Source of the DNA: a virus
Reading direction: 5' to 3' (one strand)
DNA: 27,059 bases
Virus record (IMG/VR): IMGVR_UViG_3300025732_000223
Span: 1-27,059 of that record
The notes under the pieces were generated by a model. It did not search any database and was not told the origin of the DNA. It saw only the letters and a program-made list of their open reading frames with translations. Below are positions 2,256 to 25,319 of this stretch, piece by piece; the stretch's first letter is position 1, and each line of letters begins with the position of its first letter. Position numbers and translations under genes: made by a program.

Positions 2256-4700
2256 TTACCTCGCAAGAGCGTACTTAAAAGGGTTTTCAGCAAAGGCGGC
2301 GTAGATGTAAGTTCTTGTTCCAAACGAAACTTCGCCAGCGGCTGGGTTGGTTGTGTAGATTTTAAAACCGTTTGATAACAAATCGATTGTCGCTGTTGTT
2401 GCGCCGTTAGCGCCTTCCGCAGAAGTATCATTCGGCACAAGCCAAGATGTAGCTGGCGCTGCTACGTTATAAGTTTGGCGAGAACTATCAAAAATAAACC
2501 ATCTTTCTACGTTATCTGAGTTTTTCAGTATGATTAAACGTGGCCTAAAACCAAGATAGGTAAATGTTCCGTTCGTTGAATTGTTGTTCGTCCACGTACC
2601 AAACGCGCTGTAGCCAGCGATTGGGGCGAAGCAGTAAGCAACAATGTTGTCATTGTTTGTATACGCTGCTGTTGTCATTGAAAACACGGTGCTTGTCGGT
2701 GCAGCTGCAAAATATCCTGCCGCCGCCGCTGCAGTGCTGTTCAAAATCAATCGCTGCGTGTAGCCTAACGAAACGTGATACACGTCCCAATTAAATGCGG
2801 AAGAACGGTCTTTTACAATAATAAAACTTGGTGCAACACCTAAACCGTGACCAATAGTGTTGTTTGCTGATGTTGAAAAAGTCCAAGTAACAACACTAAA
2901 TCCAGCAGTGGAATTGACGCTAACGGTAGACGTTCTATTGCCGTCGGTGTTGGATGACGATGAGCCAGCACCAGCAAGCCATTGCCAACCGACATAAGTA
3001 GCCGCATTGGTGTTCATTTGAGCCAGCGCACCAACAGTAAAGCCCGTGCTACCAAACGCAGTTAAGCCTGTTGTCTCTGTTGTCTCTGCTGTTGTTGTGT
3101 TGCTCTCTAACTGTTTTTGCACACCACGAACAGAGTCATATAGCGCATGGTCTGTTGCACCACTTCTGCCTTTTACCCAAACAAAGTCAGGATAAAAAGA
3201 TGCGCTACCAACAGTGTTTGCAATGGTTAAAGAAGCTCCGGTTCCAGTGTATGTTGTAGCCGCCATATACCCCGCACCATTCGCAATCGTCGGCGTTGAC
3301 AGGTTTTGAGTGCAAAGTGCTTTGAAGCCTGATGGGGCGGTGTAGCTAAATGCGCGTTGACCGAAGTTAAAATCAAATGCTCCGTTTGAGTTATAAAAAG
3401 ACACTGCTGGCATCATTGTCGTTGCTGTGCCTGACAGCGTACCTGTTGGTGACGTGCCAGCAGCAGGGTCACCTTGTACCCATGAACCTGATGTATTCCT
3501 AAACCAAATTTTTCCTGCGTCGGCATCGTAAGCAATTCCAATAGTACCGTTAGCAAGAGCAGGAGCCGTTCCAGAAACCGTAAAATTGCTTGAGTAAAAA
3601 TTACCTAACGTGGTTGTATACCCCCAACCAATCGCATTACCACTACTTGCTAAAGAAGTTCCATCAGCAAAACCAATGTAGCTTTGTATGCCAACAATAT
3701 TTACTGTTGATGTTGTTGGATTATTTACAGCAACTTCCCAATACCATTTGCCAGTAGTCATTGGAAATGTGCCGTAAATTATTTGATGGTTTGCTGTGTT
3801 ATCTCCGGATACTTGAAGATTCCCTGTGATAGCAGAAACCCTGCTATTTTTAGCGACAGGGTTCATAACACAATAATTCCCACGCACCGTACCACCAGCG
3901 CCAGTGTCAGTGCCATACGGTGTCGGCGTGTCAACCATTGAATCGTAAGTTGCGCCAGCAGTAACGCTAATGTTGTTAGGTGTCCAGTTGTTTCCGTTGC
4001 CGGAATAGTCCTTGCCGATAGTTGCAGCAGTGTTGTTGCTGTTATCGCTGAAATTCAGATAAAAGCCGTTCGTTCCGTAAGTGCCAGTGTATCTCGCTGG
4101 CCCCCACACGCCAGTTGTCGTGTTGATTGCGCCGAAGCTAGATGGCGTTAGTTGCTGACCGTCGATGAAGTTGACTTCGGTAAGGTAGCCGTCAAAGTAG
4201 TTTTGTGATGCTGGAACTCCATAAGCACCTAATGCATGAGAAACAGCAGAGTTAATATAGGTACTAGAATTTTGAGTAGGATAAGTTATAGTGCCACTAA
4301 AAGATGTAATCTGAGTTCCATTTACATAGAACTTTACTCTGTTTGTGTTTGTTGCTTGTGTCGTATCAACCGCAATAACTAAGTGATACCAAGCAGACGG
4401 GTCACGAAAAACTTGGGTTGTGTGATATTCCCCATTTGACCCCGCATTGATATACAGAGCAAGGCTATCCCCTGTTTCAAAAAATATATTATCCGTCCCT
4501 GTTGCAAAAAATAGTCGCTGTGTAACGCTAAGTGTTCCACGCTTTATCCATGCACTCCATGTCCAAATCTTGTTGTTTGTCGGTGTTGTCAGCGTCCGAT
4601 TGAAATACGCACTTGCAGCCGAGCGCAGACGCACACTGCGGCTGATTTGATAGCCGGTAGCGCCGCCTTTACCTAAAAATATGTCTTTTGAACTAAACAT
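2256..4700 (-). CDS. Tail fibre / receptor-binding protein with LamG- and SPRY-like domains
   Basis: An 814-aa beta-rich protein. Residues about 25-185 look like a concanavalin/LamG fold (WTWSAWIKRG, FYVNGTQI, GYLTEVNFIDGQQL). Residues about 285-460 look like an SPRY/B30.2 domain (GKWYWEVAV, IGFADG, IGIAYDADAGKIWFRN). The C-terminal third contains three diverged copies of one beta module, each opening with (F/L)(V/I)xVKxR-like strands and a D-S-R/V element (FVWVKGRSGA, FIIVKDRSSA, LIILKNSDNV) and ending in an aromatic strand (YVGWQWLAG, NIVAYCFAP, YIYAAFAENP). This matches a fibre-tip module I associate with DUF7483. It starts in a TAATG overlap with the upstream fibre gene. It is probably the host-recognition protein; the ligand is unknown. 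Confidence 0.8.
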   Translation of the reverse strand: MFSSKDIFLGKGGATGYQISRSVRLRSAASAYFNRTLTTPTNNKIWTWSAWIKRGTLSVTQRLFFATGTDNIFFETGDSLALYINAGSNGEYHTTQVFRDPSAWYHLVIAVDTTQATNTNRVKFYVNGTQITSFSGTITYPTQNSSTYINSAVSHALGAYGVPASQNYFDGYLTEVNFIDGQQLTPSSFGAINTTTGVWGPARYTGTYGTNGFYLNFSDNSNNTAATIGKDYSGNGNNWTPNNISVTAGATYDSMVDTPTPYGTDTGAGGTVRGNYCVMNPVAKNSRVSAITGNLQVSGDNTANHQIIYGTFPMTTGKWYWEVAVNNPTTSTVNIVGIQSYIGFADGTSLASSGNAIGWGYTTTLGNFYSSNFTVSGTAPALANGTIGIAYDADAGKIWFRNTSGSWVQGDPAAGTSPTGTLSGTATTMMPAVSFYNSNGAFDFNFGQRAFSYTAPSGFKALCTQNLSTPTIANGAGYMAATTYTGTGASLTIANTVGSASFYPDFVWVKGRSGATDHALYDSVRGVQKQLESNTTTAETTETTGLTAFGSTGFTVGALAQMNTNAATYVGWQWLAGAGSSSSNTDGNRTSTVSVNSTAGFSVVTWTFSTSANNTIGHGLGVAPSFIIVKDRSSAFNWDVYHVSLGYTQRLILNSTAAAAAGYFAAAPTSTVFSMTTAAYTNNDNIVAYCFAPIAGYSAFGTWTNNNSTNGTFTYLGFRPRLIILKNSDNVERWFIFDSSRQTYNVAAPATSWLVPNDTSAEGANGATTATIDLLSNGFKIYTTNPAAGEVSFGTRTYIYAAFAENPFKYALAR

Positions 4701-14734: not shown

Positions 14735-15382
14735 TTAAGTAAGTTGAAAGCCACGATGTGCTTTTTTCTGCTCTCTGTGCCAGTGATAAGCCATCGGAGC
14801 ATTTTGGTAGTGCCGAAAACCCGGTATTCCTTGCGTCCAGTGCAAAATCTTTGCTTCTTCATTTGTGCCGTACTCATCGCACAGCCAATTCCATTCGGCA
14901 GGCAACTCGCCGACTTCTTCGTCGTTTAGCCAATAAAACTGGTGTGACACGACAGAGTTGACAAGTTCTATTTTATTTGATTTGTGTCCACAATTCCACA
15001 ACATTACGCTAGACCAGTTTTTGCGTGGGTAGTCGAGGTTGGGCGATTCCATGTCGGTGCCGATATACTTAACCGTGCCATTCGTTTTGTAGTCATTTTT
15101 GACCACTTGAACGGCAAATTTTTCATCGCGCATCGCCCACAGTTTGGCTATGTCATCCAAGCAAACCATGTCCGAACCATCGGCAAAGATCGCCCAACCG
15201 TCGTAATTACAGATTTTGGGAATAGCAAAGCGGCTATAAGTAAAAGCGTTAGAGCCGGTGGATTGCGGCCCATGCAGCGGCAGGATGGCGATTGGCTCGG
15301 ATGCGCGCGAGACAATTGAGTTCACAAACACGCCAAGCCCTGCGGCTTCGCGCTCATCCCAACCGCAGAAAAGCCGAATCAT
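14735..15382 (-). CDS. GT8-like glycosyltransferase
   Basis: A 215-aa protein. IRLFCGWDERE at the N-terminus, FTYSRFAIP at about 47-55 and WAIFADGSDMVCLDDIAKLW at 63-82 match the nucleotide-sugar-binding region of GT-A enzymes, with DGSD (68-71) in the place of the metal-binding DxD. Downstream NWSSVMLWNCGH and ILHWTQGIPGFRHY fit the acceptor/metal His region. It overlaps the methyltransferase gene by 4 nt (ATGA) and is the last gene of a four-gene transferase cassette. It would transfer a sugar from a nucleotide donor; the acceptor is unknown. Confidence 0.8.
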   Translation of the reverse strand: MIRLFCGWDEREAAGLGVFVNSIVSRASEPIAILPLHGPQSTGSNAFTYSRFAIPKICNYDGWAIFADGSDMVCLDDIAKLWAMRDEKFAVQVVKNDYKTNGTVKYIGTDMESPNLDYPRKNWSSVMLWNCGHKSNKIELVNSVVSHQFYWLNDEEVGELPAEWNWLCDEYGTNEEAKILHWTQGIPGFRHYQNAPMAYHWHREQKKAHRGFQLT

Positions 15383-15855
15383 TTATACCCCACAACGCGC
15401 ATATCTCGATTGGGAACGTGGAACAGCGCGTCGGTTACTTCCACATCCCTAAAACCTGCCGTTTTTAATAAATCAGCAATTTCATCCTTTGAATAACACC
15501 ACTTGTGCTGCATTGCGGCAGGTTCAGACATACCAAATAGGGCGCGTCCAATCATCCCTTCGCTGCGGTGTCCGTGATTCCACAAGCCGATAATTTTATC
15601 CAAACAAGGCATCTCAAGCGTTAGTTTGCCATTATCGCGTAAGACGCGATGCCATTCGCGCAACGTGTTTTCCACGTCACCGCGCTCAAGGTGTTCAAAC
15701 AAATGAATGGCGGCGATCTCATCGACCGAGCCGTTATCCATCTCTAAACGGCGCACGTCTGACAAGATGTCAGGTTCGCCAGCGATGTCCACGCTAGTCC
15801 AAGTAGGCCAGTGGCGATCACCAGCACCTAGATGGAGTCGAATACGCTCGCCCAT
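15379..15855 (-). CDS. SAM-dependent methyltransferase, class I
   Basis: A 158-aa Rossmann-fold methyltransferase. Motif I LHLGAG is at 7-12, the acidic end of strand 2 is at Asp23 (SVDI), SDVRRLEMDNGSVDEI holds motif II, and AAIHLFEHL at 48-56 plus LREWHRVLRDNGKLTLEMP give motifs III/IV. This is the Methyltransf_11-type pattern. There is no obvious target-recognition domain, so a small-molecule or sugar substrate is more likely than DNA. It starts 28 nt inside the upstream glycosyltransferase gene and ends in an ATGA overlap. In this context it may methylate a glycan made by its neighbours; that is inference. Confidence 0.85.
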   Translation of the reverse strand: MGERIRLHLGAGDRHWPTWTSVDIAGEPDILSDVRRLEMDNGSVDEIAAIHLFEHLERGDVENTLREWHRVLRDNGKLTLEMPCLDKIIGLWNHGHRSEGMIGRALFGMSEPAAMQHKWCYSKDEIADLLKTAGFRDVEVTDALFHVPNRDMRVVGYK

Positions 15856-16679
15856 GCCGCGCCGATCCTTTCGGGTGAATACTTGGATGCAATGTAATCT
15901 TGCGCTCGAATCGTCAATTCATTGAGTTCGTGGCTAAATGCTTGCGTGTATTGCATACCGCCTTTGAGCGAACCCAAATAAATGTAGTCGCGAAAATCCC
16001 TGTAATTTAGGCTATTTTCTGCGACAACAAAGCATCCAGCCATTACCGCGCTAATCAAGCGATTTGCGCTTTTGTAAGTGTTTGGATCAGAAACAGGCAA
16101 AATAACCACGTTAGCACGCGCAAATTCGGCTTTTAACGCATCTTCTGACCACGGTACATAGGTGGGTAGCACGTTGTTATTTCCGGTGCATAGGCGCAGT
16201 TTTACGCCCTTTAGCATGGGTAAATACTTGTAGATTTCCTTAATGTTGGATTCATGCCCAAACCACAGGAAATTATCGCCATTGGCGTGCACTGGCGCTT
16301 CGTGCTCCCAAGTGTCGGGCACAACCTGCGCGTCAATTTTGGTGTGCGTATAGATGCGGCGCGCCATTTCTTCGGTCGCGCAGGTCACGCGATCCGCTAA
16401 TTTGGCGCATTTTGTGTAGATTTCGCCCCAAATGGGCTTGTCAAAATGATCGTCGCACAAATCCACAACGGATTTTGCGCCCGAATCGCGTACTTTTTGG
16501 ATGATTTCCACGTCATCAGCGTGCGGTTTGGAGAAAACCACAATATCCGCGTCACCTTCGTTGATAAACGACCGATAACCGTGTTTTTTGATCTCAGATG
16601 CAGGAATCGCCACGCGCAGGCGATAGGATGCCATGCGTGGCCCGCCTCTGTGGATGAAACTTACGCCGCGAGTTTCCAT
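15828..16679 (-). CDS. Glycosyltransferase, GT4/GT-B-like
   Basis: A 283-aa protein. The N-terminal half opens with FIHRGGPRMASYRLR and contains a Rossmann-like half (DADIVVFSKPHADD, KSVVDLCDDHFD). The C-terminal half has FLWFGHESNIKEIYKYLP (about 137-154), LRLCTGNN and FARANVVILPVSDPNTYKSANR ... AVMAGCFVVAENSLNYRDF (about 186-229). The last stretch matches the nucleotide-sugar-binding 'E.(M)..G.PVV' region of GT4-type enzymes. It overlaps the neighbouring genes by 19 and 28 nt. It is probably a sugar transferase acting with the other cassette members. Confidence 0.75.
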   Translation of the reverse strand: METRGVSFIHRGGPRMASYRLRVAIPASEIKKHGYRSFINEGDADIVVFSKPHADDVEIIQKVRDSGAKSVVDLCDDHFDKPIWGEIYTKCAKLADRVTCATEEMARRIYTHTKIDAQVVPDTWEHEAPVHANGDNFLWFGHESNIKEIYKYLPMLKGVKLRLCTGNNNVLPTYVPWSEDALKAEFARANVVILPVSDPNTYKSANRLISAVMAGCFVVAENSLNYRDFRDYIYLGSLKGGMQYTQAFSHELNELTIRAQDYIASKYSPERIGAAWASVFDSI

Positions 16680-17437
16680 TCGCGCCTAACTTTCATAATT
16701 TCAGCAATTAAACCATCGCCTCTGACATCCAATGTGATGTCAGGCATGACAGTATAAACCAACTGAAACTCATTAGCCTGTTGCGCCATTGCCATGTTAC
16801 ATAAAAATTTACGCTTGTGCGGCGGTTCGCCCACCATCACTTCAACTGTGCGGCCTGCTTTCTCACCCGAAAAGCGTTTTGTGCCATCTTCTTTGATGCA
16901 CGAATCGTAACCGTACAGAATGAATTTACGGAATCCCAACAAATAGCCTAGATTGATTGCGCGCAACCCACTGGTTGTGCCGCCACCAACTGCTAGGCGT
17001 GTGCCAATTTCTTTCATTTCATCATCGCTCGACCAGCTATTCCACAGCAGTATCTTTTTATCTGCCAAGTGGTCAAACATCACCGGATCGCAGCGCGATG
17101 CTAATAAATAGGTGGTGTGATCGTTTTTGCGCTGCACACCATTGCGCTTGTCACGCGGATCAAGATCAACCCACAAGTCGGGTTCTAATCCGTTTTCGCA
17201 CAACCAATCGTGCGTGCCCTTGATTGAACAAATAGGCTTGCCCTGCTCTTTGTGCGCTTTTATTTCGTCAAAATACTCTGTCACTGAAGGCCCACTCCCC
17301 ACCAGCACGATAGTTCCATCGTGCGGGCAGGGGGCAGGGGTAAACTCCGGTAAACCACGATCCAACGCCGCGCGGATATTTTGAGCGAGTTCCGCAGGCT
17401 CGCCTGCGGCTTGAACCGAGATTTCCAGTTTTTGCAT
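16661..17437 (-). CDS. DUF115 / MptE-like protein
   Basis: A 258-aa protein with a DUF115-type core: IVLVGSGPS at about 43-51, ICSIKGTHDWLCENGLEPDLWVDLDPRD spanning about 69-96, then GGGTTSGLRAINLGYLLGFRKFILYGYD. This fold occurs in 6-hydroxymethylpterin pyrophosphokinase MptE and in flagellin glycosylation (Maf) proteins, so it binds a nucleotide or nucleotide-sugar. I chose the ATG at 17437, one base after the upstream stop; a TTG five codons earlier also exists. It leads the cassette directly behind the capsid decoration gene. Function (sugar transfer rather than pterin synthesis) is inferred from context. Confidence 0.75.
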   Translation of the reverse strand: MQKLEISVQAAGEPAELAQNIRAALDRGLPEFTPAPCPHDGTIVLVGSGPSVTEYFDEIKAHKEQGKPICSIKGTHDWLCENGLEPDLWVDLDPRDKRNGVQRKNDHTTYLLASRCDPVMFDHLADKKILLWNSWSSDDEMKEIGTRLAVGGGTTSGLRAINLGYLLGFRKFILYGYDSCIKEDGTKRFSGEKAGRTVEVMVGEPPHKRKFLCNMAMAQQANEFQLVYTVMPDITLDVRGDGLIAEIMKVRREWKLAA

Positions 17438-17438
17438 C

Positions 17439-17918
17439 TTAAGTGCCAGCAATACCCGAAGCGATATGCGGGTAACCTGCGATACAGGTCACAGCAGTCG
17501 CGTTGGAGATTGATGTCGTGGCTACCAAGCCGAACACGGCACCGCCTGACACCACAGCGTCATCAAGCACGCCCGATGTTGCAGTGGTGTAAAGAGGCAC
17601 GTTAGGGGCAGCATTAGCAGCAAGGTTAACCAAAACCTTACCACCCATTTGCACCCAACCGTAATAGCCCGAAGCGATGGATGTTTGCGCGAAGCCGATA
17701 CGCTTGCAAGTTGCTGCGAGCGTGGTGGTCATCATCTGCGCCTTTTGCGTGTCATAAATTGCGACAGCAGCGTAGGTGCTGATTTCCGACAGGGCTTGCA
17801 CATAAATGGCTTGACCACCATCCGACAAATTGACAACAGTACCCGTAGTGAACTGCGAGGTGCTGTCAACGTTGGTAAGGGTTACGCCAGCGGTGTTGCT
17901 AACTGAAAAAGTAGGCAT
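17439..17918 (-). CDS. Capsid decoration/head-stabilising protein candidate
   Basis: A 159-aa protein rich in Ala, Thr, Val and Gly with a beta-rich pattern (TTGTVVNLSDGGQAIYVQ, YYGWVQMGGKVLVNLAANAA, VPLYTTATSGVLDD). Such genes directly behind the coat gene in phages usually encode small beta-barrel decoration or cement proteins. AGGAG lies 8-12 nt before the ATG, similar to the SD of the capsid gene, fitting high expression. No signal or membrane segment is visible. Assignment rests on position and composition. Confidence 0.7.
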   Translation of the reverse strand: MPTFSVSNTAGVTLTNVDSTSQFTTGTVVNLSDGGQAIYVQALSEISTYAAVAIYDTQKAQMMTTTLAATCKRIGFAQTSIASGYYGWVQMGGKVLVNLAANAAPNVPLYTTATSGVLDDAVVSGGAVFGLVATTSISNATAVTCIAGYPHIASGIAGT

Positions 17919-17934
17919 TTTCTATGATCTCCTA

Positions 17935-19168
17935 TTAAGCAATCAGCACGCCGCAGAACTGCGGGCCGCTGCTTGTGAGGTTACCGGCCCAACCAATTAG
18001 CTTCACGATAGCGTCTTGGTTGACCGCTTGGCGTTCGCCACCGATTGGCACGAAATTACGATCCGCATGGGGACGGAACATCATGTATTTCGTGTTGAGG
18101 AACCACATGTGGTTAGCAGTAGCGGCTGAACCGATACCACCGTCGAGCACAACGTCGGATGCCATACCAGCGCCGAAATACTTCAGCGAGGCAAAGCCCG
18201 CGCCAGCCATTGACGAACCACTGTCGGTAATACGCTGAATCGACTGCAACGATTGCAGGTACAAGCGATAGTAGTTGTTGTCGGCAACGATCAGGTCAGG
18301 TTTGTCCGTACCGCGAATCAGTTGCACAGCGACCGAATCCATGTACTGCTGGATGTTGGACGCAGTGACAGCCGCACCGCCGTTGGTCACGCCCGAATAC
18401 GACACGGAACGCCAAAACGTCCACGCGGAGCGATCAATACCACCGTATGTGCCGGTCACAGGCGAATCAGGCACAGCAGCGCCCAAACCGGTGATGTTTT
18501 TGCCAGCGTTGCCGGTTCCATCCAAATAGATGTCCGAACCGATACGGTTAGCCAATTGCGCTTCGGCAACATTCATACGACCGTCAAGCAGGTCAATGAT
18601 CGCCTCTTTGCCGCTGTTCTGAATCATTTCCAAACCGCTGATCGACACTGCCGACGCGTATTGGGTAATTGAGAACTGAGCAGCCGAGATCGGGCTGTTT
18701 TGCGACACATTCAACACTTCGTAGCCGGAATAGCTATTGGTGTTGTTCGTTGTGCTGTCGTTGTACATAATTTCCTGGCAAGGTTGTTACGAGCTACAAC
18801 TGCTCGGCGTGGTCATTTCTGCCACACTCTCGAACTTAAATGACTTCAAGTTATATTCGAGTTCAGACTATCGCTTCACCTTTGCAGGTGTTCTCTCGCT
18901 TAGTCGTTCACGGTGCTTTCGCTTCCGCCTTGTTGTCCCCTTCGGGAGTTCCAAGTCAATCAGAGAGAATTCTCACATCTGCGTTTCAATGCAGAGTGAC
19001 CCCAACATTAAGGATTACGTTACCACCGGAAAACGGCTTAACGTTGCCGCGCTCTTTCAAACGACGCAGTAAAGCGTTGTTGTTTGTTACGTTATCAGCT
19101 AACTCACCGCTACGCGATTGGATGTTAGTCGCGATGATGTCGCTGATTGAACTATTGGCGAATGCCAT
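17935..19168 (-). CDS. Major capsid protein, gene split by a group I intron (exons 19168-19011 and 18778-17935)
   Basis: Exon 1 (19168-19011) gives codons 1-52 plus two bases; exon 2 (18778-17935) completes codon 53 and runs to the stop. Joined they make 1002 nt and a 333-aa protein. The junction reads GGNVIL-QEIMYNDS, the continuity I expect for this coat family, which also shows NSPISAAQFSITQYA, DIYLDGTGN, KPDLIVADNNYYRLYL and VNQDAIVKLIGWAGNLT. It should be an HK97-fold shell subunit working with the upstream scaffold and portal. SD AGGAG lies upstream of the ATG. Without splicing, translation stops at TGA 18988-18986 after 60 aa. A downstream ATG at 18768 begins a 277-aa frame that would lack the N-terminal arm; automated callers may report it as the whole gene. 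Confidence 0.9.
18779..19010 (-). ncRNA. ORF-less group I self-splicing intron in the major capsid gene
   Basis: The 232-nt intron runs from U 19010 to G 18779 on the minus strand. P1 pairs exon AUCCU (19015-19011) with intron GGGGU (19003-18999), with U.G at the splice site. P2: UCUGC 18995-18991 / GCAGA 18982-18978, extended by CAC/GUG. P3: UUCUCUC 18969-18963 / GAGAGAA 18897-18891. P4: CUUG 18955-18952 / CAAG 18932-18929. P5: UCCC/GGGA. P6: GCGG 18928-18925 / CCGU 18913-18910 with a GAAA-capped P6a. P7: GACUA 18905-18901 / UAGUC 18870-18866. P8: CACCU 18890-18886 / AGGUG 18881-18877. J8/7 is AAGCGA. P9 CUCGAA/UUCGAG, P9.1 GUGUGG/CCACGC and P9.2 CGAGC/GCUCG follow. P3 and P7 have the required interlocked order. 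P10 is not evident. Subgroup is not assigned; compact size resembles the Azoarcus and Anabaena tRNA introns. Confidence 0.92.
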
Positions 19169-19191: not shown

Positions 19192-20235
19192 TCAAAGTCG
19201 GCTTGTTATGCCATCAAACTGCTCGGCTAACAACGTCCGTCGGTCTTGTGCTTTAGTGGCGGGGGGCGCTCCGGGTGCGGAACTACGCACGCTCACTGCT
19301 GCTGCTCGCGCCGTTTTTGCCGCTTTATCAGCGACAGCCCTTTTCTGCGCGTCTAGCTTGGCTTGTGTGCTTGCTTGAACGCTTTCAAAAAGCTCCGGAT
19401 CGAGACGAATTGCTTTTTCATATGCATCATCTAACGTCTGCGCGACACCACTCTGTAGGAGTTGGATCATCGTGGGACGTGCTGCTTCAAAATGCTCTGC
19501 CTTTTGTGAAAAATGGTTAATTTCCGTCAAAAGTTGAGCATTCTTTTCTTGCTCCTGCTGTTCCCGCCAACTCATCACCTCGCCACGAATTCTGTTCAAT
19601 TCGTGCTGAAGCGCCGAAACATTGGGATCGGCAGGCATTTGTTGCTGCTGAATTTCTGTTACGCCCGACAAATCTACGCCATATTGCTGTGCAAGTCGAG
19701 CGAACAACGCGCGTTTTTGGTTGGGGTCGCTGTAGCGCAACGCATGGTCGGCTTCCATTAACGCCTTGACCGCCTGCGGCGCGTCAATACCCAAGCCTTG
19801 AATCGTCTGCATATATGGCTGCACGACTTCTTGAATCTGATCGGCAAATTTAGCCTTTTCTAGCAATGGCTGAACGCCAGCCTTCATTTGTTCTTCGCGC
19901 TGCCATGCGTATTCTTGCAGGCGCGGATCGGCGCTTGACCATGCTTCGTGATAGTCCTTTTTCCACGACGCAGGTGGACGCTTCCACACTGGCGGTTCTT
20001 CCACTTCCTCAACCGCAGGTTCTTCGGCGGGCTGCGCGTTCTTTGATACAAACTTGCCTGATTCGTCGCGCACGCGCGCACTGGGCTTTGTCTCGGCTGC
20101 GGGCGCTTCTTCTACCGCCTCTGCCTTTGCAGGCGCAGGCGCGGGTTCTGCGGATGCTTCGTTTTCAATTAACTCAAACTGCTCGGTCAAAAGGTCGCGG
20201 CGTGTTTCAGAATCGGCTTGTGTGATCTCAGACAT
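19192..20235 (-). CDS. Capsid scaffolding protein candidate
   Basis: A 347-aa acidic, Ala/Glu/Gln-rich helical protein. Residues about 1-85 are low-complexity (Ala, Pro, Glu). About 125-290 are helical and coiled-coil-prone (LQHELNRIRGEVMSWREQQ), and the C-terminus is basic/Ala-rich, then RRTLLAEQFDGITSRL. The last piece echoes the N-terminal RRDLLTEQFELIE, a short duplicated motif at both ends. Position directly before the coat gene, length near P22 scaffold (303 aa) and composition all support a scaffold that guides shell assembly and leaves. SD AGGGAG lies about 6 nt before the ATG. Confidence 0.8.
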   Translation of the reverse strand: MSEITQADSETRRDLLTEQFELIENEASAEPAPAPAKAEAVEEAPAAETKPSARVRDESGKFVSKNAQPAEEPAVEEVEEPPVWKRPPASWKKDYHEAWSSADPRLQEYAWQREEQMKAGVQPLLEKAKFADQIQEVVQPYMQTIQGLGIDAPQAVKALMEADHALRYSDPNQKRALFARLAQQYGVDLSGVTEIQQQQMPADPNVSALQHELNRIRGEVMSWREQQEQEKNAQLLTEINHFSQKAEHFEAARPTMIQLLQSGVAQTLDDAYEKAIRLDPELFESVQASTQAKLDAQKRAVADKAAKTARAAAVSVRSSAPGAPPATKAQDRRTLLAEQFDGITSRL

Positions 20236-20591: not shown

Positions 20592-20947
20592 AGCAGTAAA
20601 AGTACGTCCTCGTCATCGGCTTCAATGTGTTTATCCCATACCTGCTGTGCTGCGTGCAGTTGCGAGATGATTGCGTCATAGTCAAACGTGGTGCCTGTAA
20701 GGATTTCGGCTTTGCTAGTGATGCCGTGTTCGCGCAACGGCTCGACGATTTCGGGCACATCTTCTTTGCCTTCAACAATGCGTTCGTAAACGGCAATAAG
20801 CTCGCGGCGCTTCGCTTCGCGGTTTTCGGCTTCCCGCTTAAAGCGGTCGCGTAGCTTGTCACCATCGTGCGTGTCAAGATCGATAAGCGTGGGAACGTAA
20901 TCCCACGTTGCCGAATCCCAAGTGCCTGTATCCCATCCACCATTCAT
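20588..20947 (-). CDS. Small head-module protein with Trp-Asp repeat N-terminus
   Basis: A 119-aa protein of unknown function. Residues 1-20 hold a Trp repeat (GGWDTGTWDSATWDYVP); about 25-65 are charged and helical (DRFKREAENREAKRRELIAV), and the C-terminus is acidic (DDEDVLLLL). It starts in a TAATG overlap with the portal stop and ends in an ATGA overlap with the next gene, so it is tightly coupled. A parallel frame gives a 119-aa shadow, but that lacks this pattern and coupling. The WDxGxW motif recurs in the tail hub protein. Confidence 0.7.
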   Translation of the reverse strand: MNGGWDTGTWDSATWDYVPTLIDLDTHDGDKLRDRFKREAENREAKRRELIAVYERIVEGKEDVPEIVEPLREHGITSKAEILTGTTFDYDAIISQLHAAQQVWDKHIEADDEDVLLLL

Positions 20948-23238
20948 TATTGGGTCTGTATTTCAACACCGATTGCTTTGCCATCAGGCCCACGAATAAT
21001 CCGTTTCGGCGCTGACATCACCTGCATCATCGTTTCCATTTTCTGCGCGGTATCAGCCATGCCTCTATGAAGCATTTCCACGCCTTCTAGCGCACTCTGC
21101 ACGCCCGCACCAAGCTCCTGTGTCATGCGCTCGGCGCTTGCGGTAGCGGCCTCGACAAGCGGTATATCCACGCCCGGATTCGACGAAATCCGCGCCACCG
21201 TGACCTTTGTCGCGGCTTCGAGTTCCGTTTTCCAACGCTGGAATTCTTCTTCGCGTGCAAGTTTTTCCGCTGCCATCTGCGCTTCGAACTGTTGCTTTTG
21301 CGCTTCTAACCGCGCCTCTGCGTCCAATTCCATTTGCTTCATCGCAGCATCGGCCTGCATCTTTGCTTGTGCCAGTTGCGCTTCCATTTGCGCTTTTGCC
21401 TGTGCTGCTTGCACATCTGCCTGCACGCGCATCTGATCGGATTGCTGCTGCGCCTGTAGCTTCATCATTTCCGGATCGGGTTTGGGTTGCGGGTTCATCG
21501 CGGCTTGCTGTTGCTTTTCCTTCAACTGATCGAGCGCCGCGTCTAACGCGCCTTCAATCGGTTTGGATTGCTTGAACGCGGTTACGCCAAACTTCATCAC
21601 TTCAATCAGCATCGGCGTAATTTCGGGCGATGCTTGTGCCACTGGCAGCGCTTCACGCAAGAACCCGCCAAACGCGGTGATGAACTCAACGCGATCCTGC
21701 TTCATTTGCGCTTCATCCAACTGCACCAAACTATCGGCAGCAACGTCAATTCGGAAGTTACGCAACGGACGGTCTTTGATTAGCTCAAGCGCCTGCGGGA
21801 TCATTTGCTGATCTTGCGGCACCATCTGCGCCGCAGCTGCGTAAGACAGAATCGTTTGCGGCTGAAACTTGGTGCAAATGATTTGCGCCTTGAGACGTAG
21901 CAATTCGGTCGCAAATAGCGCCACATCCTCTTGCATGGCCTTTAGACGCAGCGACGCAAACTGCCCTTTGATTTGCTGTGCGGTTGCGGTTTCAGAGGCA
22001 AATGACGCACCGCGCAAGATGTCCGATAGTCCTGTGATTTCGTAGATTTGGTTTTTGATATCTGCGCGCGCTTGGTAGCACTGATTGAGCGTGGAAGCCA
22101 GCATGTCAATTGGCAGCAAATCAATCGCGCCCTTTAGCCCGCCCTTTTCACCAAACGCCATCCAGTTATCCACAGGAATAAGCGCATTGTTTTCGCCTTC
22201 GGTCAACAATCGCTGCAATGCTGGCTGACTAGCATCGTAAACGCCGCGCACGCGCAATGCCTTGACCAAACCATCAATGCGGTCAGACAGGATGTCAAGT
22301 TCGACCGCCTGATCTTGATACAGCACAAAATCGGGCACAGGCACTAGCGTGTCGCTTGTCATCGTGGCATACAGCGGTTTAGCGCATGGGAAAAAGCCCT
22401 CAAGCCCCAACGGATCATCGCGCACGTCAATGTATTGCGGAGCGTTCTTGCTTAACCAATACACCTTGCCCGATTCTTTATCCCACAGTTCGCAAATCAT
22501 TGCGCGCGTGTGTTCTTTTGTCGATTGACCGTATTGCTTGAGCGTGTCGGGCGCGGAATCAAGCGGGATAGTTTTAGCTTTTTCTTCGCCGAATCGCTCG
22601 ATCAGCGCGTCCTTCGTCATATAAACCCAACGCCACACGCACGTCACTTCTTCCCATGTGCGTGCGATGGAATGACCGAAATCCTTCCAATGCACATAAT
22701 CAACCGGCGCGCATTCGTATTCGATTTCCTCTGCCATTTGCGGCATACCTGCGCTGCCATCTTCTGATTCAGCGTGCGGCTCGGTGTCCACATCTTCGGT
22801 AATCTCTAACCCATCTTCGGGAATGCCCACCGCGCGAACGTGCGGCTCATACCTCGCCCATGCCACGCCGCGACCACCAAGAAACCGATCTTCGACGCAT
22901 TGACGCATCGTGGCGCGGAAATCGGGGTAATGCTCAATCTCAAAGTCCAGCGCGCGCTCAACTAGCTGCGAGGCCACGCGACCGATTGGGTCATTGTCAC
23001 CGAAGCGACGCGACACATCGGCTTTTGGTAGGCGTGCGTAAACGGCGGGGATCAACGTCTGCACGTTTGACCACAGGATGTTGAACTTTGCCGTTTCGTT
23101 AGTGTTTTGGGAACGATTATCATCGCGGTAACGCTTGATGATTTTTTGTGTACGCGCTTCCCATTTCTTGAACTCACCGTCGTACTGAGCGATGACGTTC
23201 ATCCACTTTTGCACGCCTGTGCTTTGTTGTTCCATCAT
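20947..23238 (-). CDS. Portal protein, P22 gp1-like
   Basis: A 763-aa portal that forms the dodecameric DNA channel at one head vertex and docks the terminase. The N-terminus has WEARTQKIIKRYRDDN and FNILWSNVQTLIPAVYARLPK, hallmark portal sequences; the central domain has GRGVAWARYEP, YVHWKDFGHSIARTWEEV, DSDRIDGLVKALRVRGVYD-like helices and LYEITGLSDILRGAS-type segment near the stem. From about residue 590 on it is a long Gln/Ala/Glu-rich coiled coil (QAQQQSDQMRVQADVQAAQ), equivalent to a portal barrel. Length is close to P22 gp1 (725 aa). The ATG overlaps the upstream stop (ATGA), with AGGAA before it. Confidence 0.9.
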   Translation of the reverse strand: MMEQQSTGVQKWMNVIAQYDGEFKKWEARTQKIIKRYRDDNRSQNTNETAKFNILWSNVQTLIPAVYARLPKADVSRRFGDNDPIGRVASQLVERALDFEIEHYPDFRATMRQCVEDRFLGGRGVAWARYEPHVRAVGIPEDGLEITEDVDTEPHAESEDGSAGMPQMAEEIEYECAPVDYVHWKDFGHSIARTWEEVTCVWRWVYMTKDALIERFGEEKAKTIPLDSAPDTLKQYGQSTKEHTRAMICELWDKESGKVYWLSKNAPQYIDVRDDPLGLEGFFPCAKPLYATMTSDTLVPVPDFVLYQDQAVELDILSDRIDGLVKALRVRGVYDASQPALQRLLTEGENNALIPVDNWMAFGEKGGLKGAIDLLPIDMLASTLNQCYQARADIKNQIYEITGLSDILRGASFASETATAQQIKGQFASLRLKAMQEDVALFATELLRLKAQIICTKFQPQTILSYAAAAQMVPQDQQMIPQALELIKDRPLRNFRIDVAADSLVQLDEAQMKQDRVEFITAFGGFLREALPVAQASPEITPMLIEVMKFGVTAFKQSKPIEGALDAALDQLKEKQQQAAMNPQPKPDPEMMKLQAQQQSDQMRVQADVQAAQAKAQMEAQLAQAKMQADAAMKQMELDAEARLEAQKQQFEAQMAAEKLAREEEFQRWKTELEAATKVTVARISSNPGVDIPLVEAATASAERMTQELGAGVQSALEGVEMLHRGMADTAQKMETMMQVMSAPKRIIRGPDGKAIGVEIQTQ

Positions 23239-23680: not shown

Positions 23681-23982
23681 GCCGAGAAGATGCCCACGCC
23701 GATAACCGATACACCTGCGCCTGTCGTGACTTTCCACGCACCGGTAGCCGAGCGCATGTTTAGCTCAATGCTATAAACGCCAATCGTTGTGCTAGCAGGC
23801 ACAACAGCAATAGATGTTGAGCCATCCAAGATGGTGACAGTGCCAGTTAGCGCGGTGCTAACCGTCACAACGATGCGATGCAAGTAATCGCCGACTGCAC
23901 CTGTGCCGCCCAAGACCTGCGCGGTCTGTGATGCTGCAACGGTTTCGTATGCATAAGCATAGGGATAAGATACGCCGCTCAT
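23677..23982 (-). CDS. Small beta-rich conserved phage protein
   Basis: A 101-aa protein with YETVAASQTAQVLGGTGAVG (residues 12-31), DYLHRIVVTVSTALTGTVTI, and NMRSATGAWKVTTGAGVSVIG near the C-terminus. It looks like a compact beta sandwich. Similar small proteins occur next to terminase genes in phages; whether they enter the virion is not known. It overlaps the terminase stop by 4 nt (ATGA). No catalytic motif or membrane segment is visible. Confidence 0.75.
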   Translation of the reverse strand: MSGVSYPYAYAYETVAASQTAQVLGGTGAVGDYLHRIVVTVSTALTGTVTILDGSTSIAVVPASTTIGVYSIELNMRSATGAWKVTTGAGVSVIGVGIFSA

Positions 23983-25319
23983 ATTCTGCTACTCCTTTGT
24001 GATTTGGTGGTTGCCCACATATCGTTTAGTGTGACCGTATTCTGCGGCCCGACGATCAGCGGGCGAATTGTATCGGGTGCTTTAACTTTTGGTTCGGCAC
24101 GCCACGCGATTGCGAGCATCCTGAAAGCGTCTGCTGGGTGAGATGTCCAATCGTGGCGTGGCGTTTGTCTAAATGCTTTTTTATCCTCATCGTACTCGCG
24201 CTGGTATTGACGCAGCGCCTCAATGCCTTCGTGACAGTTGTCGGCATCAAACCACACGCGCGGTAACATCTGCCGCACGGCTTGAATACCGTCTTGCACT
24301 GACAGGTCGGGCACGATCTTGAGCGATGAGATGCCAAGATGCTCGGCAAGTTGTTCGATGATGGATTTGCCTTGTGCTGCCAACGTCTTTGCTTTTGCGT
24401 CGTGCGGCAAATAGTGCTTGCCATACTTATAGGGTTTTGACTTGATGACATCGGCAAGTTCGGCGATGTTTGCGCCTGATACTGCGAAATAGTCAATGAC
24501 GTGGATTTCGCCTGCGATGACTTGATAGAACCAAATCGCCGTGTCATCGCGGTAGCCCAAATCCCATGCGGTGTGCACTGGTAGCTCGAACTGATATTCG
24601 ACTGTAGTGATGCGACCTTCGTCATCTGCCTCGCGCAATTCCTTGCCGTAGAACGCGCCAAGAATCGCCGCCTCAAATGAGCATTCGTATTCTTGCAGAT
24701 ATTGATCTTCGGATAGCTGTGCGCGCGCGGCTGCCAATTCGCTATCGGGTAGCAGTCCTGACTTGCTGGCGGGCAGTGTCAGATGAAACCATTCGCCCTT
24801 GCTGCGTTGTGCGGTTGAGTAGATCGACCAAAACTGATTCTTGCCTTTCGGCGTACCGCCAAACACGCACCAGCCCTGCTTATCGGATAGCGCTGGTCGG
24901 ATAACGTTACCAAACACGCTTGGTTTGAAATCACCGTATTCATCCAAGTAAACGCCCGAAAAGCCTAACCCGCGAATGCCGTCTGCATTGTCAGCACCAA
25001 ACAAACGAATTTTTGCGCCGTTGACCAGCGTGACGGTCAGTTCCGCTTCGTTGCTGTCAGCCATGATGGGCTGTGCGTAATGCTTGAGATAATCCCAAAC
25101 AACGGATTTTGCTTGCGAGCGATACGGAGCAACGTAACCGAACAACGGCATTTTGTCTTTGCTCATAATCGCTGCTCGGATGATGTCGTTGATTGCAGCG
25201 ACGGTTTTGCCTGCGCGACGATGCGCGACCAAACACGCCCAGCGTTCGGTACGGTTATGGAATGGCATGAACGCGTAGCGTGGCGCATAGGGCAGGACTA
25301 TTTTGTTGGTTCCGACCAT
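23979..25319 (-). CDS. terL: Terminase large subunit
   Basis: A 446-aa packaging ATPase/nuclease. Walker A is VAHRRAGKTV with Lys38-Thr39; Walker B is SGVYLDEYGD with Asp126-Glu127; motif III is FGGTPKGKNQFW at about 153-164. The C-terminal RNase H-like nuclease shows HTAWDLGYRDDTAIW (Asp253), YLPHDAKAKT (Asp307) and SHPADAFRMLAIAW for the final acidic residue. It converts ATP energy into DNA packaging through the portal and cuts the concatemer. The short size fits the compact terminases of podoviruses. It overlaps the small-subunit candidate by 22 nt. Confidence 0.95.
   Translation of the reverse strand: MVGTNKIVLPYAPRYAFMPFHNRTERWACLVAHRRAGKTVAAINDIIRAAIMSKDKMPLFGYVAPYRSQAKSVVWDYLKHYAQPIMADSNEAELTVTLVNGAKIRLFGADNADGIRGLGFSGVYLDEYGDFKPSVFGNVIRPALSDKQGWCVFGGTPKGKNQFWSIYSTAQRSKGEWFHLTLPASKSGLLPDSELAAARAQLSEDQYLQEYECSFEAAILGAFYGKELREADDEGRITTVEYQFELPVHTAWDLGYRDDTAIWFYQVIAGEIHVIDYFAVSGANIAELADVIKSKPYKYGKHYLPHDAKAKTLAAQGKSIIEQLAEHLGISSLKIVPDLSVQDGIQAVRQMLPRVWFDADNCHEGIEALRQYQREYDEDKKAFRQTPRHDWTSHPADAFRMLAIAWRAEPKVKAPDTIRPLIVGPQNTVTLNDMWATTKSQRSSRI

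Follow-up and report, generated by a model that had tools for sequence, protein, structure and literature searches.

A small group I intron lacking an endonuclease frame in a phage major capsid gene whose relatives carry introns at about ten sites

The interrupted capsid gene

The window, i.e. the whole 27,059-nucleotide stretch analysed, comes from a virus contig of the IMG/VR kind. Profile matches and open reading frames revealed, in this order on the minus strand, the large terminase subunit (23979-25319), the portal protein (20947-23238), a frame without any profile match (19192-20235) and the major capsid gene. Glycosyltransferase-8-like, methyltransferase and MptE-like frames, possibly a surface-modification cassette, occurred amid the virion genes (14735-17452, minus strand). 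The capsid frame opens at 19168 on the minus strand and halts after 60 codons, and a second capsid frame opens at 18768 in the ORF list, on the same strand. Both pieces matched adjoining parts of one profile, PHROG 9953 (major head protein), at E 5e-11 for the first and E 8e-88 for the second. The features of the interrupted gene are as follows.

19011..19168, minus strand: exon 1, codons 1-52 plus CT of Leu53; PHROG 9953 positions 4-54; 100% identical in L002
19011..19015, minus strand: exon side of P1, AUCCU, with U19011 as 5' splice-site U; partner GGGGU at 18999-19003, the helix closing with U.G
18779..19010, minus strand: ORF-less group I intron, site "codon 53", 232 nt; from family covariance model, covariation and frame restoration
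18999..19003, minus strand: internal guide sequence GGGGU, intron side of P1; GGGGU shared by sites 53, 151 and 280 and by L090 (site 285)
18779..18779, minus strand: terminal G of the intron; G238 of alignment A1, invariant there; also from the joins
17935..18778, minus strand: exon 2, C of Leu53 to stop; PHROG 9953 positions 63-328; dN/dS (below)

Excision of 18779-19010 restores a capsid protein of 333 aa (...GGNVIL|QEIMYN...) with neither a gap nor an added residue, the join falling at L53|Q54. This exact restoration of the 333-codon frame, together with the match of PHROG 9953 to both pieces, bears out the original prediction of an ORF-less insert at this position of the major capsid gene. 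No endonuclease-sized frame is contained in 18779-19010 according to the ORF list. By its profile match, the spliced protein belongs to the Mx8-like capsids of PHROG 9953; the nearest named phages are Bradyrhizobium phage ppBjS10J-1, Stenotrophomonas phage BUCT555 and Myxococcus phage Mx8, with 51-53% protein identity (51% for the Mx8 capsid).

Among 80 close capsid loci, approximately 70 uninterrupted relatives displayed VILQE[I/V]MYN unbroken over the join. Alignment of the spliced protein to these homologues thus upheld both splice sites and the GGNVIL-QEIMYN junction that had been predicted from the frame. An identical 232-nt insert was present in two of the 80 loci; its position was the same in L002/L087 and in L003/L142, which are independent contigs, and L084 had a near-identical insert. 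The window being a metagenome-derived virus contig, an assembly or sequencing artefact had to be considered. Since two further contigs, from different samples, contain the identical insert and additional ones contain near-identical copies, an assembly error is ruled out and an artefact of either kind has a negligible probability.

Some 20 contigs likewise gave exact splice joins for the sites at codons 53, 151 and 280, and further contigs gave them for codons 28, 62, 72, 83 and 310. As reconstructed, the introns at codons 53, 151 and 280 follow exon ends in CCT and leave joined proteins that are collinear with their relatives. Because only joins with a G as the last intron base were sought, the joins are not independent evidence for the terminal G; in alignment A1 this G is invariant. 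At codon 53, AUCCU was found in every occupied gene, as P1 requires it, against 19 of 90 intron-less genes, a contrast that bears no probability because the sequences are related and many were fetched by a pattern including the intron start. A search by eye for P10, between the 3' exon and the guide region, yielded nothing convincing.

Exon 2 is under strong purifying selection and kept as protein, dN being far below dS in comparisons of the window with the intron-less L004 (dN 0.008, dS 0.138) and with L224 (dN 0.089, dS 2.2). This bears on the alternative that the insert is retained, under which a degenerate intron would have disrupted the gene, with ATG57 as a separate start for exon 2 and a capsid protein that is truncated or in two pieces. 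AGGAAATTATG indeed resembles a ribosome site, with an in-frame ATG just past the junction and AGGA four bases upstream of it, and the mechanical ORF list opens exon 2 at ATG57. Yet the intron core is undamaged and shows no change at the positions that group I introns keep constant, the same insert accompanies this selected exon 2 in several contigs, and intron-less relatives encode an unbroken protein. Retention of the insert is very improbable.

Core fold and covariance models

The fold was examined in an alignment of 34 capsid introns from five sites, on a structure written by hand from one of them. All core helices (P3, P4, P5, P6, P7 and P8) were present in this comparison, with P3 and P7 interlocked. 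In the window they are located as follows.

18963..18969, minus strand: P3 5' strand UUCUCUC, partner GAGAGAA at 18891-18897; 99% of cells paired, three pairs double-changed
18929..18955, minus strand: P4 (CUUG/CAAG) around P5 (UCCC/GGGA); both 100% paired
18910..18928, minus strand: P6 GCGG/CCGU with P6a; homologues alternate GCGG/CCGU and GGGC/GCCU
18901..18905, minus strand: P7 5' strand GACUA, partner UAGUC at 18866-18870; invariant in 34/34 introns
18878..18889, minus strand: P8 ACCU/AGGU, then J8/7 GAAGCGA; P8 100% paired, three pairs double-changed; J8/7 aligned to RF00028
18829..18861, minus strand: P9 CUCGA/UCGAG with an inner helix; pairing 100%, with as many as six pair types at a single position

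Over the 34 introns, 91.0% of cells pair, compared with 77.7% when shuffled and 36-45% when slid. Double-changed cells numbered 260 against 77 in shuffles, and 34 of the 62 pairs displayed double changes. Compensatory changes affect P3, P5, P6, P8 and P9, one P5 pair occurring as C-G, G-C, A-U and U-A, while P4 is nearly invariant and P7, by homology the putative guanosine-binding helix, entirely so. Because the structure was written from one aligned sequence, changes that cannot be built in by this procedure were used as added evidence: the flip in P6, and the covariation of exon and guide in P1 at codon 62, where guide GCGG accompanies exon CCGU, and guide GUGG accompanies exon CCAU. Single-sequence folding (z -3.2) misses the P3/P7 pseudoknot and was given no weight. 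The U.G-terminated P1, P3/P7, P4-P6, P8 and terminal G that had been proposed from the window are all sustained by covariation and invariance in the 34 introns. As far as sequence can tell, the insert 18779-19010 is confirmed as a group I intron by its conserved core, its U.G-ended P1, its terminal G and the frame restoration.

The general model for such introns performed poorly. At its gathering threshold, Rfam found no match in the insert, to which RF00028 (Intron_gpI) gave 17.5 bits, under a cut-off of 50 that is a curation threshold rather than a structural feature. The alignment of this small and divergent insert nevertheless spans the whole model, with P3, P4-P6, P7, P8 and J8/7 in register. 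A dedicated model, R1, built from 31 related introns outside this capsid gene, matched the window at 18829-18970 with 135.6 bits (E 8e-33), the next best match having 7.7 bits. The original prediction had set the RF00028 search as a refuting test; in view of the R1 score, a refutation on that basis would be mistaken. Among 29 whole records, 17 had matches to R1, these matches comprising 16 strong (86-138 bits) and six weak (17-21 bits); those whose positions were compared agreed with capsid insertions.

These features suggest how the intron would leave the capsid transcript. The exon end AUCCU would pair with the guide GGGGU as P1, a guanosine held in P7 would attack after U19011, and the freed U would then attack after G18779, so that the exons would be joined as VIL-QEIM and a full-length capsid protein be made.

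Intron sites within one gene and movement or exchange between them

The frequency of insertions was estimated from an intron-blind sample, a scan in two versions for the codons of KEAIIDLLDGRM. Among the matches listed, 36 of 179 complete capsid genes carried an insertion longer than 60 nt (two insertions in 2 of the 36). Grouped at 95% DNA identity, the genes formed 137 clusters, of which 28 contained an insertion, six of them together with empty genes, again among the matches listed. In this phage group, about a fifth of the capsid genes contain a single intron or a pair of them, the sites numbering about ten (in window codon numbers: 28, 53, 62, 72, 83, about 147, 151, 280, 285 and 310). 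The earlier interpretation therefore stands for the presence of an ORF-less group I intron in the capsid gene, but not for its being exceptional in this type of phage.

Two core families were distinguished. Family GATTGACTTGG... occupies sites 53, 62, 151, 280, 285 and 310, its introns in the capsid gene measuring 231-254 nt (231-245 nt at codon 53) without an endonuclease ORF. Family GAATTCGGTG... occupies sites 28, 72, 83 and 147, and its codon-28 intron, about 700 nt long, contains a GIY-YIG ORF (PF01541, E 1e-5). Sites 147 and 285 were each recorded in one locus (L103 and L090, respectively), the intron of L090 being cut by the contig end. Two introns per capsid gene were found in L103, L212, L216, L218, L219, L224, L225, L226, L227, L415 and L426. 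Both core patterns together occurred 43 times in 2.18 Mb around 238 such genes, in loci that are centred on the capsid gene and reach up to 15 kb; 40 of these occurrences lay inside it. The other three (L090, L356 and L421) came from loci in which a contig end truncates the capsid gene; the one in L090, when checked, proved to be the codon-285 intron, and those in L356 and L421 are taken to be introns of the cut gene.

The larger intron-like insertion with the GIY-YIG ORF (~700 nt, capsid codon 28) was observed in L009 (1630-2492), L012, L024, L026, L033, L035 and L063. RF00028 detected nothing in the codon-28 insertions of the four records tested.

Introns at sites 53, 151, 280 and 285 have a common guide, GGGG(T), and all follow exon CCT; beyond this CCT, no similarity was evident between the flanks of these four sites. 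Their 5' parts (~200 nt) cross site boundaries: identity there is 99% between L103, at site 53, and L172, at site 151, and L219 (site 151) is 97% identical to the window (site 53) but 92-93% to other introns of site 151. One clade per site was rejected by the AU test for site 151 (p 2.7e-13) and, with the two outlying rows L357 and L439 left out, for site 53 (p 2.9e-6). As this 5' region does not sort by site, introns have moved or were exchanged between sites. The last ~60 nt, in contrast, are 90-96% alike within site 151 and at most 78% alike between sites 53 and 151. Shared 5' parts combined with site-specific 3' ends indicate either repeated transposition followed by adaptation of the 3' end, or conversion of the 5' part between older copies.

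Two simpler scenarios were weakened by these comparisons. Plain transposition of whole introns accounts less well for the site-specific last ~60 nt than conversion between older copies. A very recent duplication within L224, which has copies at 53 and 280, is at odds with compensatory differences in P5 and P6 over 113 nt; its codon-280 copy matches L213.

According to a review, reverse splicing requires a guide pairing of 4-6 nt (PMC3984707), and shared guides with different flanks are what this requires. New sites were apparently picked by the short guide, which would fit RNA-level reverse splicing of an ORF-less intron, with recombination between phages assisting its spread. Guide-directed reverse splicing to new sites, with conversion afterwards, is the reading we favour, tentatively and at an even chance or somewhat less. 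The model in that review concerns eukaryotic rRNA, whereas a phage protein gene is concerned here; the proposal is otherwise alike, and in neither case was the pathway directly observed in nature. The scan of window proteins, which covered part of the ORFs, detected no reverse transcriptase.

The main rival to guide-directed reverse splicing concerns the mobility only and invokes homing at the DNA level. Intron-borne or free endonucleases would have cut capsid genes and the endonuclease would later have been lost, exchange between sites being recombination of similar introns during co-infection. The GIY-YIG ORF at codon 28 shows that the second core family in this gene does carry an endonuclease, and relatives of the window family in other phages adjoin HNH endonuclease frames. 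Likewise, the window and L004 agree throughout the first 120 nt of the gene and differ at eight positions between nt 120 and 179, the insertion lying at 158, a pattern expected from co-conversion, although other patches of differences exist; the site-specific 3' ends also fit partial conversion. However, the CCU shared by the flanks at 53, 151, 280 and 285 is too little for a homing endonuclease, and no endonuclease ORF is present in the first-family introns of the capsid gene, which measure 231-254 nt. Homing is a serious possibility that falls somewhat short of even.

Taken as a small endonuclease-free group I ribozyme that splices from the capsid transcript and is one copy of a mobile lineage, the window intron is very probably explained correctly; that lineage would have colonised about ten sites in the capsid gene across the phage group. 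The gene may even act as an intron trap, an idea put forward with some reserve, in which guide-directed reverse splicing repeatedly brings one ORF-less lineage into further sites of a single, highly expressed mRNA while the copies at different sites swap the catalytic 5' part. If so, natural populations hold occupied, empty and doubly occupied alleles for studying the transposition of ORF-less introns. Such mixed alleles make the spread of ORF-less group I introns to new sites testable.

Related introns in other virion genes

The P7-P8-J8/7-P7 core pattern (GACTAA...GAAGNGATAGTCTGA) was found in at least 120 stretches of viral contigs, where a rough estimate predicts about two by chance; the window intron therefore belongs to a large family. 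No similar intron was found in the plasmids searched. Frames flanking the related introns matched a second major head family (PHROG 1357, 17/87), tape-measure proteins, portal proteins and major tail proteins, in tallies that count neighbours of introns and not proven exons. Exact interruptions were nevertheless recorded. A tape-measure gene is split in a Bacillus pumilus contig (L466), PHROG 4211 matching up to 772 before and from 772 after the intron, and the tape-measure intron representatives scanned gave PHROG 58 up to 466 before and from 466 after. In MW202674 (Podoviridae sp. ctn9Y15; L204), a P22-type coat gene is interrupted in the same manner (PHROG 283 up to 87 and from 89, i.e. 1-87 and 89-382). 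Related introns thus interrupt other capsid and tape-measure genes. That of MW202674 is 80.7% identical over 133 nt to the window intron and also lies exactly in a major capsid gene, but of another capsid family and at another site.

In the GenBank record of the latter (MW202674.1, 13879-20011), two "P22 coat protein" CDSs are annotated with a hypothetical ORF between them (about 2984-3213 of L204); the arrangement suggests a single coat gene into which a related group I intron is inserted.

Introns in virion genes are not new, and the supposed unusualness of this location could not be maintained: capsid and tail introns were demonstrated in 2013 in Cluster J mycobacteriophages (PMC3706429), and the wider family described above occupies other capsid and tape-measure genes. 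LittleE has an 820 bp intron in its major capsid gene, proven to splice by RT-PCR and shown at the RNA and protein levels, and BAKA and Optimus have an intron in a tail gene, that of BAKA being 265 bp long, without endonuclease and likewise proven by RT-PCR (PMC3706429). The authors called the type of the LittleE intron unclear, most likely group I, and cited a further capsid-gene intron in lactococcal phage Tuc2009 (PMC3706429). The likeness to the present case lies in the following: major capsid and tail genes are the hosts, the LittleE and BAKA introns have a U before and a G at their end, and a 156-bp segment is common, at 98%, to the capsid and tail insertion sites (PMC3706429). The LittleE intron, however, has a LAGLIDADG-like ORF and is confined to a single capsid site, in one phage out of six (PMC3706429), whereas ORF-less introns occupy many sites of one capsid gene here.

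Neither introns in this capsid family nor a capsid gene with about ten sites were found reported in the open-licence literature. The kind of intron is already known, and the invasion of many sites in one gene appears undescribed. Phage group I introns seem to prefer genes of nucleotide synthesis and DNA metabolism, for unknown reasons, according to a 2025 paper on phage group II introns (PMC12350094). The group I family described here is large and occupies virion genes, and the introns detected in one phage group lie in its capsid gene. Such introns escape generic models and gene callers, as the subthreshold Rfam score and the two coat genes that GenBank displays for MW202674 illustrate, so that capsid-based phage surveys split or lose the genes concerned.

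Several other occurrences were observed. Compact related introns were present in tape-measure genes of L098, L102, L105, L140, L146, L150, L161, L194, L195 and L198. In Roseobacter phage CRP-118 (OR420741.1, L205, about 2973-3372), a related core lies between the ribonucleotide reductase CDSs gp44 and gp45, which are ~400 nt apart and probably form one intron-split gene. Bacterial genomes contained related introns in prophage-like tape-measure genes of Bacillus pumilus (L466) and Paenibacillus barcinonensis (L468), the latter with an HNH endonuclease frame after the intron.
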